Below are positions 43,166 to 48,363 of a stretch of DNA of 64,000 nucleotides, piece by piece (within the stretch, counting starts at the first letter, position 1; each line of letters opens with the position of its first letter). A program made the translations under genes and the position numbers. The notes beneath the pieces are model-generated. The model made no database searches. It saw only the letters and a program-made list of their open reading frames with translations, and was not told the origin of the DNA. Location of the stretch: the NCBI GenBank assembly GCA_030765065.1, contig CM060988.1:198646565-198710564 (forward strand), read 5' to 3'. The DNA is from Deroplatys truncata. Taxonomy: Eukaryota; Arthropoda; Insecta; Mantodea; Mantidae.

Positions 43166-46100
43166 GGGATCTACCTGTGCTGCTGAGTAATCAGAGAACT
43201 CCAACCTTAAATCTCTACTTTATCTACCTGTGATGCTGAGCAAATAGAGAACTCCAGCCTTAAATCTCTACTTGATCTACCTGTGATGCTGAGCAAATAG
43301 AGAACTCCAGCCTTAAATCTCTACTTCATCTACCTGTGCTGCTGAGTAAACCGAGAACCCCAGCCCTAAATCTTTACTTGATCTATCTGTGGTGCTGAGC
43401 AAAAAGAGAACTCCAGCCTTAAATCTCTACTTCATCTACCTGTGCTGCTGAGTAAACAGAGAACTCCGGCTTAAATCTCTACTTAATCTACCTGTGATGT
43501 TGAGTAAACAGAGAACTCCAGCCCTAAATCCCTACTTGATCTACCTGTGATGTTGAGTAAACAGAGAACTCCAGCCTTAAATCTCTACTTGTATCTACCT
43601 GTGGTGCTGAGCAAACAGAGAACTCCAGCCTGAAATCTCTACTTGATTTACCTGTGGTGCTGAGCAACAAAGAAAACTCCAGCCTTAAATCTCTACTTCA
43701 TCTACCTGTGGTGCTGAGCATACAGAGAACTCCAGCCTTAAATCTCTACTTCATCTACCTGTGGTGCTGAGCAAACAGAGAACTCCAGCTTTAAATCTCT
43801 ACTTGATCAACCTGTGGTGCTGAGCAAACAGAGAACTCCAGCCTTAAATCTCTACTTGATCTACCTGTGGTGCTGAGTAAAAGGAGAACTCCAGCCTTAA
43901 AGCTCTACTTGATCTACCTGTGGTGCAGGGTAGATAGGGAACTCCAGCCTTAAAGCTCTACTTGATCTACCTGTGGTGCAGGGTAAACAGAGAACTCCAG
44001 CTTTAAAGCTATACTTGGTCTACCTGTGGTGCTGGGTAAACAGAGAACTCCAGCTTTAAAGATATACTTGGCCTACCTGTGTTGCTGGGTAAACAGAGAA
44101 CTCCAGCTTTAAAGCTCTACTAGATCTACCTGTGGTGCAGTAGATAGGGAACTCCAGCCTTAAATCTCTACTTGATGTACCTGTGGTGCAGGTTAAACAG
44201 AGAACTCCAGCTTTAAATCTCTACTTGGTCTACCTGTGGTGCTGGGTAAACAGAGAACTCCAGCTTTAAAGCTCTACTTGATCTACCTGTGGTGCAGTAG
44301 ATAGGGAACTCCAGCCTTAAATCTCTACTTAATCTACCTGTGGTGCAAGGTAAACAGAGAACTCCAGCTTTAAATCTCTACTTGGTCTACCTGTGGTGCT
44401 GGGTAAACAGAGAACTTCAGCTTTAAAGCTCTTCTTGGTCTACCTGTGATGCTGAGTAAACAGAGATCTCCAGCCTTAAAGCTCTACTTGATCTACTGTG
44501 GTACTGGGTAAACAGAGATCTCCAGCTTTAAAGCTCTACATGATCTACCTGTGATGCTGGGTAAACAGAGATCTCCAACTTTAAATCTCTACTTGGTCTA
44601 CCTGTGATGCTGGGTAAACAGAGATCTCCAGCTTTAAAGCTCTACTTGATCTACCTGTGGTGCTGAATAAACAGAGTACTCCCGCTTTAAAGCCCTACTT
44701 GATCTACCTGTGGTGCAGGGTAGATAGGGAACTCCAGCCTTAAAGCTCTACTTGATCTACCTGTGCTGCAGGGTAAACAGAGAACTCCAGCCTTAAATCT
44801 CTACTTGGTCTACCTGTGATGCTGGGTAAACAGAGAACTCCAGCCTTAAATCTCTACTTGATCTACCTGTGGTGCTGGGTAAACAGAGAACTCCAGCTTT
44901 AAATCTCTACCTGATCTACCTGTGGTGCAGGGTAAACAGAGAACTGCAGCTTTAAATCTCTACTTGGTCTACCTGTGGTACAGGTTAAACAAAGAACTCC
45001 AGCATTAAAGCTCTACTTGGTCTACCTTTGGTGCTGGGTAAACAGGGAACTCCAGCTTTAAATCTCTACTTGGTCTACCTGTGGTGCAGGGTAATCAGAG
45101 AACTCCAGCTTTAAATCTCTACTTGGTCTACCTGTGGTGCTGGGTAAACAGAGAACTCTAGCTCTTATTTTCTGTTTGATCTACCTGTGGTGCAGGGTAG
45201 ATAGGGAACTCCAGCCTTAAAGCTCTACTTGATCTACCTGTGGTGCTGGGTAAACAGAGAACTCCAGCTTTAAAGCTCTACTTGATCTACCTGTGGTGCT
45301 GGGTAAACAGAGAACTCCAGCTTTAAATCTCTACTTGGTCTACCTGTGGTGCTGGGTAAACAGAGAACTCCAGCTTTAAATCTCTACTTGGTCTACCTGT
45401 GGTGCTGGGGAAACAGAGAACTCCAGCCTTAAATCTCTACTTGATCTACCTGTGGTGCTGGGTAAACAGAGAACTCCAGCTTTAAATCTCTACTTGGTCT
45501 ACATGTGGTGCTGGGTAAACAGAGAACTCCAGCTTTAAATCTCTACTTGATCTACCTGTAGTGTTGGGTAAACAGAGAACTCCAGCTTTAAATCTCTACT
45601 TGGTCTACATGTGGTGCTGGGTAAACAGAGAACTCCAGCTTTAAATCTCTACTTGATCTACCTGTGGTGCAGGGTAAACAGAGAACTCCAGCCTTAAATC
45701 TCTACTTGGTCTACCTGTGATGCTGGGTAAACAGAGAACTCCAGCTTTAAATCTCTACCTGATCTACCTGTGGTGCAGGGTAAACAGAGAACTGCAGCTT
45801 TAAAGCTCTACTTGGTCTACCTGTGGTGCAGGTTAAACAAAGAACTCCAGCTTTAAAGGTCTAGTTGGCCTACCTTTGGTGCTGGGTAAACAGGGAACTC
45901 CAGCTTTAAATCTCTACTTGGTCTACCTGTGGTGCAGGATAATCAGAGAACTCCAGCTTTAAATCTCTACTTGGTCTACCTGTGGTGCTGGGTAAACGGA
46001 GAAGTCTAGCTCTTAAGTTCTGTTTGATCTACCTGTGGTGCAGGGTAGATAGGGAACTCCAGCCTTAAAGATCTACTTGATTTACCTGTGGTGCTGGGTA

Positions 46101-48363
46101 AACGGAGAACTCCAGCTTTAAAGCTCTACTTGATCTACCTGTGGTGCTGGGTAAACAGAGAACTCCAGCTTTAAATCTCTACTTGCTCTACCTGTGGTGC
46201 TGGGTAAACAGAGAACTCCAGCTTTAAATCTCTACTTGGTCTACATGTGGTGCTGGGTAAACAGAGAACTCCAGCTTTAAATCTCTACTTGGTCTACCTG
46301 TGGTGCTGGGTAAACAGAGAACTCCAGCTTTAAATCTCTACTTGGTCTACCTGTGGTGCTGGGTAAACAGAGAACTCCAGCTTTAAATCTCTACTTGGTC
46401 TACCTGTGGTGCTGGGTAAACAGAGAACTCCAGCTTTAAATCTCTACTTGGTCTACCTGTGGTGCTGGGTAAACAGAGAACTCCAGCTTTAAATCTCTAC
46501 TTGGTCTACCTGTGGTGCTGGGTAAACAGAGAACTCCAGCTTTAAATCTCTACTTGATCTACCTGTGGTGCTGGGTAAACAGAGAACTCCAGCTTTAAAT
46601 CTCTACTTGATCTACCTGTGGTGCTGGGTAAACAGAGAACTCCAGCTTTAAATCTCTGCTTGGTCTACATGTGGTGCTGGGTAAACAGAGAACTCCAGCT
46701 TTAAATCTCTACCTGATCTACCTGTGGTGCAGGGTAAACAGAGAACTGCAGCTTTAAAGCTCTACTTGGTCTACCTGTGGTGCAGGTTAAACAAAGAACT
46801 CCAGCTTTAAAGGTCTAGTTGGCCTACCTTTGGTGCTGGGTAAACAGGGAACTCCAGCTTTAAATCTCTACTTGGTCTAGCTGTGGTGCAGGATAATCAG
46901 AGAACTCCAGCTTTAAATCTCTACTTGGTCTACCTGTGGTGCTGGGTAAACGGAGAAGTCTAGCTCTTAAGTTCTGTTTGATCTACCTGTGGTGCAGGGT
47001 AGATAGGGAACTCCAGCCTTAAAGATCTACTTGATTTACCTGTGGTGCTGGGTAAACAGAGAACTCCAGCTTTAAAGCTCTACTTGATCTACCTGTGGTG
47101 CTGGGAAACAGAGAACTCCAGCTTTAAATCTCTACTTGGTCTACCTGTGGTGCTGGGGAATTAGAGAACTCCAGCCTTAAATCTCTACTTGATCTACCTG
47201 TGGTGCTGGGTAAACAGAGAACTCCAGCTTTAAATCTCTACTTGATCTACCTGTGGTGCTGGGTAAACAGAGAACTCCAGCTTTAAATCTCTACCTGATC
47301 TACCTGTGGTGCAGGGTAAACAGAGAACTGCAGCTTTAAAGCTCTACTTGGTCTACCTGTGGTGCAGGTTAAACAAAGAACTCCAGCTTTAAATCTCTAC
47401 TTGGTCTACCTGTGGTGCAGGATAATCAGAGATCTCCAGCTTTAAATCTCTACTTGGTCTACCTGTGGTGCTGGGTAAACAGAGAACTCTAGCTCTTAAG
47501 TTCTGTTTGATCTACCTGTGGTGCAGGGTAGATAGGGAACTCCAGCTTTAAAGCTCTACTTGATCTACCTGTGGTGCTGGGTAAACAGAGAACTCCAGCT
47601 TTAAAGCTCTACTTGATCTACCTGTGGTGCTGGGTAAACAGAGAACTCCAGCTTTAAATCTCTACTTGGTCTACCTGTGGTGCTGGGTAAACAGAGAACT
47701 CCAGCTTTAAATCTCTACTTGGTCTACCTGTGGTGCTGGGGAAACAGAGAACTCCAGCCTTAAATCTCTACTTGATCTACCTGTGGTGCTGGGTAAACAG
47801 AGAACTCCAGCTTTAAATCTCTACTTGGTCTACCTTTGGTGCTGGGTAAACAGAGAACTCCAGCTTTAAATCTCTACTTGGTCTACATGTGGTGCTGGGT
47901 AAACAGAGAACTCCAGCTTTAAATCTCTACCTGATCTACCTGTGGTGCAGGGTGAACAGAGAACTGCAGCTTTAAATCTCTACTTGGTCTACCTGTGGTG
48001 CAGAGTAAACAAATAACTCCAGCTTTAAAGCTCTACTTGGTCTACCTTTGGTGCTGGGTAAACAGGGAACTCCAGCTTTAAAGCTCTACTTGATCTACCT
48101 ATGGTGCAGGGTAATCAGAGAACTCCACCTTTAAATCTCTACTTGGTCTACCTGTGGTGCTGGGTAAACAGAGAACTCTGGCTCTTAAGCTCTGTTTGAT
48201 CTACCTGTGGTGCAGGGTAGATAGGGAACTCCAGCCTTAAAGCTCTACTTGATCTATCTGTGGTGCTGGGTAAACAGAGAACTCCAGCTTTAAAGCTCTA
48301 CTTGATTTACCTGTGCTGATGGGTAAACAGAGTACTCCAGCCTTAAATCTCTACTTGATCTAC
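43166..48363. repeat. 53-bp minisatellite (about 98 copies) made from the exon 3/intron 3 junction of alpha-tubulin
   Basis: The unit read on - is AAGCTGGAGTTCTCTGTTTA then CCCAGCACCACAG (33 bases, codons K-L-E-F-S-V-Y-P-A-P-Q), followed by GTAGATCAAGTAGAGATTTA (20 bases). The final array unit merges without a break into true exon 3, whose last 11 codons read [11 protein letters not shown] followed by the same GTAGATCAAG donor. Most units keep CAG|GTAGA. Variants include GTAGACCAAG, and units with CTGCACCACAG and CTATCTACCC. Larger blocks recur: the 'tctagctcttaagttctgtt' type marker appears near 45160, 46005, 46965, 47485 and 48180. Because 53 is not a multiple of 3 and TAA/TAG recur, the array is non-coding. 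Confidence 0.97.

Follow-up and report, generated by a model that had tools for sequence, protein, structure and literature searches.

A junction-derived minisatellite in intron 3 of an alpha-tubulin gene of the mantis Deroplatys truncata

The alpha-tubulin gene and its intron 3 array

The stretch of DNA analyzed here, hereafter the window, comprises 64,000 nucleotides of contig CM060988.1 of the mantis Deroplatys truncata (assembly GCA_030765065.1, positions 198,646,565 to 198,710,564). The minus strand of the window carries an alpha-tubulin gene, and intron 3 of this gene includes a minisatellite with a 53-bp unit that matches the gene's own exon 3/intron 3 junction. The exons were placed by tblastn using an alpha-tubulin probe, and their numbering presumes an ATG-ending exon 1 whose position was not located. 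When exons 2 to 5 were joined at GT-AG boundaries with the start codon supplied by hand, they formed a single tubulin reading frame of 451 amino acids in which the sole stop codon was the terminal one. The joined protein matches the Tubulin and Tubulin_C domains, which bears out the gene identity that had been proposed in a preliminary description of the locus. Introns 2, 3 and 4 are 1915, 11498 and 6585 bp in length, respectively. The predicted protein shares 438 of 450 aligned residues with that of the paralog L048, the proportion of synonymous differences (pS) is 0.74, and the nonsynonymous divergence (dN) is 0.027, yielding a ratio to synonymous divergence (dN/dS) of ~0.008 with dS near saturation. 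Judged by this substitution pattern, exons 2 to 5 are under strong purifying selection, and the intact frame together with the low dN set against saturated synonymous sites makes the gene look functional.

Tandem Repeats Finder (TRF) detected one array at positions 43168-48396 with a period of 53, 98.8 copies and 89% matches. The uppermost 33 bases of this array (48364-48396) are the genuine end of exon 3, and the extent reported in the preliminary description corresponds to the intronic part. Wrap-around alignment to a cyclic unit, in the register in which the first unit begins at the true start of intron 3, produced 99 rows: one for the exon edge, 97 for full units and one for a truncated unit. 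On the minus strand, each unit comprises 33 nt of the exon 3 edge, reading KLEFSVYPAPQ in the consensus, followed by 20 nt from the start of intron 3 (GTAGATCAAGTAGAGATTTA, starting GTAGATCAAG), as had been described initially. The consensus is identical to the genuine junction at 29 of 33 exon bases and at all 20 intron bases (49/53 in total). Furthermore, the array is continuous with exon 3: it starts within the last 33 exon bases and crosses the donor unbroken. Self-comparison at this junction returned 98 junction-spanning matches (E<=1e-4), by which a chance resemblance of the array to exon 3 is excluded. Thus, the observation of a junction minisatellite in intron 3 is confirmed, including the claims that it runs into the real exon 3 and that ~98 donor-like sites lie downstream of the true one in intron 3, with the gene itself intact.

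The 4.29-Gb assembly was searched for further copies. Of the 16 matches of an exact 21-mer spanning the junction, 15 fell in the array and the remaining one was the genuine junction of exon 3. A 159-nt array query gave 44 matches, all inside 43168-48396, in a search that skips common words so that absence elsewhere is unproven. The unit also was compared with six paralogous exon 3 edges, which were those among 12 exon 3-edge loci that have the YPAPQ reading used for edge finding. The match was worse in both parts of the unit, with identities of 21-26/33 in the exon part and 5-12/20 in the intron part, and an origin from a paralogous tubulin gene is ruled out for these six edges. As the unit resembles the adjoining exon edge and is contiguous with it, the paralogous edges match less well and no match was found elsewhere, the sequence comparisons indicate that the array arose in cis from the gene's own exon 3 junction.

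Repeats at other junctions of the gene and a test of control edges

The preliminary description was correct for intron 3 but incomplete, as introns 2 and 4 also carry copies of their own junctions, at a donor edge and an acceptor edge, respectively (Table 1). In intron 2, GT is retained in four of the six copies of the exon 2 donor edge (c3-c6) and is replaced by TT in c1 and c2, the two closest to exon 2. A 25-bp stretch is common to the true exon 2 junction, c1 and c2, and is missing from c3-c6. Because the true junction shares this stretch with the two nearest copies only, exchange seems to have reached the real exon 2 boundary with the exon part staying distinct. In intron 4, the acceptor edge of exon 5 is present as two degenerate copies, dupA and dupB, which lie ~0.8-0.9 kb upstream of the true acceptor, and AG is kept in one of the two; the arrays of introns 2 and 3 are contiguous with their exons. 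Directly before the exon 5 acceptor there is a further stretch, part of which resembles interior sequence of exon 5. This stretch can be aligned with the upstream portion of dupB and by this alignment is a remnant of the intron 4 tandem repeat. Overall, three of the seven junctions tested in the gene are duplicated, always with the copies on the intron side. The exon 2 and exon 3 acceptors had no repeat match in the self-comparison, whereas a single match that did not span the junction was obtained for each of the two exon 4 junctions.

Table 1. Positions of the alpha-tubulin exons, intron 3 and the junction-derived repeats in the window
Feature	Position	Strand	Basis
Alpha-tubulin exon 2 (223 nt)	50581..50803	-	tblastn, GT-AG boundaries
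Alpha-tubulin exon 3 (302 nt)	48364..48665	-	tblastn, GT-AG boundaries
Alpha-tubulin exon 4 (431 nt)	36435..36865	-	tblastn, GT-AG boundaries
Alpha-tubulin exon 5, including stop codon (397 nt)	29453..29849	-	tblastn, GT-AG boundaries
Intron 3 (11498 bp, GT-AG)	36866..48363	-	boundary reading
Minisatellite of intron 3 with 53-bp units (97 full, one truncated)	43168..48363	-	TRF, wrap-around alignment
True exon 3 end AAGTTGGAATTCTCTATCTACCCAGCACCACAG, head of array, followed by true donor GTAGAT	48364..48396	-	alignment
Intron 2 junction repeat, copies c1-c6 of exon 2 donor edge, 165/140 bp, last partial	49620..50485	-	TRF, self-alignment
Head unit of the repeat in intron 2, made up of the final 70 nt of exon 2, the true donor GTAAGA and the remainder of the first 95 nt of intron 2	50486..50650	-	
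dupA, degenerate copy in intron 4 of the acceptor edge of exon 5 (TTTTAG/GGGCGACGTCGTACCG...), ~76% identical, AG kept	30680..30792	-	
dupB, a further degenerate copy in intron 4 of the acceptor edge of exon 5, 77% identical, AA at the aligned AG	30575..30709	-	
Stretch directly before the true acceptor of exon 5, part matching exon 5 interior	29870..29916	-	

Control edges were tested at 23 other loci of 1.6-10 kb each, comprising 20 tubulin-family and three myosin regions with 50 and 18 edges, respectively. The edges are the points where homology hits end; among the 68, four mark the end of a gene instead of a splice junction, and three were tested twice. The 71 tests of the 68 distinct edges gave no repeat match at E<=1e-4, spanning or not. 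The rule for spanning was slightly looser for the exons of the window, which is immaterial as the controls had no match at all. Junction arrays as a genome-wide feature are ruled out at the 68 control edges. The contrast of 3/7 with 0/64 edges would arise by chance 6 times in 10,000, or 6 times in 1,000 if the array that had been flagged initially is left out (2/6), in a post hoc comparison whose edges are homology-hit ends. Arrays with long units (period >=20, score >=150) cover 10,966 of the 64,000 bases of the window (17%) versus 249 of 172,563 bases (0.14%) in the 23 other loci, although the window was picked for its array and part of its total is a zinc-finger coding repeat. The region around the gene thus seems repeat-prone.

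Splice signals, unit drift and origin of the array

The donor sites of the array were examined in the 97 full units, leaving out the exon row and the truncated row. GT was retained in 94 units, and AG/GT was intact in 88. The exact 9-mer of the true donor, CAGGTAGAT, was present in 44 units and a further 30 have the 9-mer CAGGTAGAC. Donor strength was scored on a table of donor frequencies in the 96 units that were scorable, one being gapped in the 9-mer. Array donors equaled or exceeded the true donor in 51 of these 96 units, seven of which were stronger. Donor-like 9-mers that equal or exceed the true donor in strength occur at 10.0/kb in the array (52 in 5196 bp) compared to 0.8/kb in the remainder of intron 3 (5 in 6302 bp). 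Use of any array donor would append VDQVEI followed by a stop as the seventh codon. The donors of the array are not purged.

The exon-like and intron-like parts of the unit are similarly variable (6.84% and 7.01%, respectively), and changes at codon positions 1, 2 and 3 of the exon-like part amount to 8.2, 5.7 and 6.6%, without an excess at the third position. With about equal variability and no third-position excess, the exon-like part is not evolving like a protein-coding sequence. A translated, conserved array is ruled out by the absent codon-position pattern and by stops within the units. Units 25-32 recur 18 units further on with three mismatches, units 12-16 recur 44 units further on with no mismatch, and near-identical neighbors follow one another in units 34-41. 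In this one assembly, the block duplications suggest turnover within the array, and we infer from the pattern that it was ordinary minisatellite turnover through unequal exchange.

Repeats of this kind have been described previously, contrary to the initial impression that no such case was known. Two papers on amphioxus define 'mirages' as tandem repeats that span exon-intron boundaries, at donor or acceptor edges, in the Adh3 and globin genes (PMC3087553), and add a mirage in the troponin C gene and imperfect repeats in PGBD5 (PMC3902484). The units measure 10-72 bp in Adh3 and 150-160 bp in the globin gene BflGb6, which has three and six units in two haplotypes; mirages also are noted in the globin gene BflGb9 (PMC3087553). 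The amphioxus mirages show length instability, and Adh3 data and reverse transcription PCR of globin transcripts suggest regular splicing (PMC3087553). For the mantis gene, the intact frame and the dN of 0.027 are indirect indications of normal splicing. Features in common with the mantis array, as far as described there, are minisatellite-like duplications across a boundary of the same gene, many units with splice signals, and concerted evolution from which the edges are excluded (PMC3087553, PMC3902484). The mantis array has a unit that spans the boundary, adjoins the real boundary in the same gene and keeps AG/GT in many units. It is thus a mirage-type repeat, and a much larger case in an insect: ~98 units, with three junctions of one gene affected, against the three to six units of BflGb6 in a cephalochordate (PMC3087553). 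Searches of an open-access collection for boundary-spanning repeats, made with limited wording, judged in part by titles and the openings of abstracts and not speaking for all print, brought up cephalochordate cases only and no insect case. A phenomenon that the two papers report for lancelets only is thereby extended to an insect gene, with far more copies than in the globin genes.

Tandem duplication likewise copies a splice signal and adds intronic sequence in the intron gain through internally duplicated AG/GT proto-splice sites that PMC3087553 attributes to Rogers, and in human internal tandem repeats (PMC2812944). The mantis gene differs in having no new intron position; instead, existing introns have been lengthened at their edges. 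Introns are seen here to grow from the edges by junction duplication, and such duplications have been proposed to supply the material from which introns are gained (PMC3087553).

The array is best explained, with good confidence, as a mirage-type junction minisatellite that arose by neutral duplication of the junction and unequal exchange and is tolerated as splicing keeps to the junction attached to the exon. A short tandem duplication across the exon 3/intron 3 boundary of the mantis gene would have come first. The duplicate would have been nearly silent to selection because splicing stayed with the exon 3-attached junction, and the extra copy would have become intron. Exon 3 would contribute 302 nt with its own acceptor and presumed enhancers, and its donor is expected to be transcribed first and is nearest to that acceptor; exon 3 as a defined unit, in the sense of exon definition, together with the order of transcription, is likely to be why the attached donor would win. 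Unequal exchange or slippage may then have raised the number to ~98 units, a mechanism that fits the 5- and 8-unit block duplications visible in the array, and the amplification would have enlarged intron 3 by 5.2 kb. The units now drift as non-coding DNA, and exons 2 to 5 stay under strong purifying selection. The exon 2 donor and the exon 5 acceptor would have undergone the same process to a lesser extent, with the exon 5 copies apparently the oldest by divergence.

Several points weigh against this explanation. With three junctions hit in one gene versus 0/68 edges elsewhere, neutral chance alone is insufficient; a repeat-prone local region may play a part. The true exon 3 donor is weak, scoring 6.3 bits on the frequency table compared to 12.6 bits for the exon 4 donor, and on these scores local sequence does not set it apart from the array donors. 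Moreover, its use is deduced from the intact reading frame. When two equal donors compete in vitro, the one closer to the downstream acceptor reportedly can win, which here would be the wrong donor. The copy number of the array is that given by the assembly.

Recursive splice sites, or ratchet points, consist of an acceptor directly followed by a donor, and AG directly precedes GT in 88 of the 97 units. The array might act as a silent splicing ratchet in which the true donor is joined to a unit with a pyrimidine-rich stretch and AG (TTCTCTGTTTACCCAGCACCACAG/GTAGAT), the junction is recreated, and stepwise removal leaves no trace in the mRNA. Errors of donor choice among ~98 donors would self-heal as the 11.5-kb intron was removed in steps, and this would account for donors staying intact at no cost. 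The unit acceptor CACAG/G scores 1.6 against 1.24, 1.13 and 0.38 for true acceptors and 4.9 for that of exon 5, and ranks above 93% of 323 AGs in the remaining intron 3. However, this home-made score is a crude one, and the similarity is a consequence of coding for YPAPQ, the motif having been inherited from an exon. There also is an additional AG 8 nt upstream of the AG of the unit, and the donor columns have no demonstrated excess of conservation over their neighbors. A ratchet is judged improbable on this evidence.

An assembly artefact, in which the array or its length was made by misassembly, finds a precedent in one published mirage that looked aberrantly assembled in a draft genome (PMC3087553). 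The array was found at a single genomic place with the gene's own exons on both sides, its diverged and shared unit variants form an ordered pattern, and separate junction repeats exist in introns 2 and 4, which together make misassembly a distinctly improbable source. It is very improbable that the array is a sink for the U1 small nuclear ribonucleoprotein, or telescripting element, selected to shield the long intron from premature polyadenylation. The high density of donor-like 9-mers in the array compared to the remaining intron would suit that function, but follows from the unit itself; the donor columns are not clearly more conserved (changed in 3.1% at +1, 0% at +2 and 44% at +6, with a mean of 6.9%), and nothing similar was seen in the paralogs examined. 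A dispersed satellite that was inserted by chance beside exon 3 and merely resembles its edge can be dismissed as exceedingly improbable, as all matches found in the assembly search that skips common words were in the array or its head junction, the array is continuous with exon 3, and 49 of 53 bases are identical across the junction.

The gene is a natural competition assay in which one true 5' splice site faces ~98 near-copies in a transcript that must be spliced correctly for tubulin to be made. It bears on determinants of donor choice beyond local sequence, namely exon context, transcription order and distance.

Other features of the window and the assembly

An 85-bp minisatellite of 26.9 copies (55100-57373) lies upstream of exon 2, either in intron 1 or upstream of the gene. 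The exon 1 donor was rejected as the source of this array, as reading of the consensus revealed no ATG/GT (the position of exon 1 was not located), and its unit contains no recognizable exon edge. A dispersed element of ~265 bp occurs as four copies in the same orientation that are 76-87% alike (49243-49506, 51580-51845, 53470-53758 and 31595-31855). By its look it possibly is a tRNA-derived short interspersed nuclear element; ARAGORN found no tRNA gene, including for this element, and no Rfam element reached gathering score in 29000-58000.

Further from the gene, 50-bp minisatellite arrays occupy 766-2641, among them arrays of 24.4 and 4.7 copies. A C2H2 zinc-finger open frame of 84-bp repeats, an ordinary zinc-finger repeat, is located at 7019-8287. 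Retroelement remnants are present at 16369-17646 and 20865-21263 on the minus strand, where one match is to RNase H and another, to reverse transcriptase, falls slightly short of the Pfam cut-off. A COX1 frame from the assembly, which may be a nuclear copy, has its five best matches among the 120 listed at 91-93% identity; the first of these, Sceptuchus, belongs to the Mantodea and the other four are mantises as well, and records of cockroaches and termites come next at ~83-86%. By this measure the DNA most likely comes from a praying mantis. Elsewhere in the assembly, at least 99 COX1 matches are scattered over many contigs (96 of 991 candidates were scored); many are partial or have TAA/TAG codons and, to judge by these traits, are abundant nuclear copies of mitochondrial DNA.

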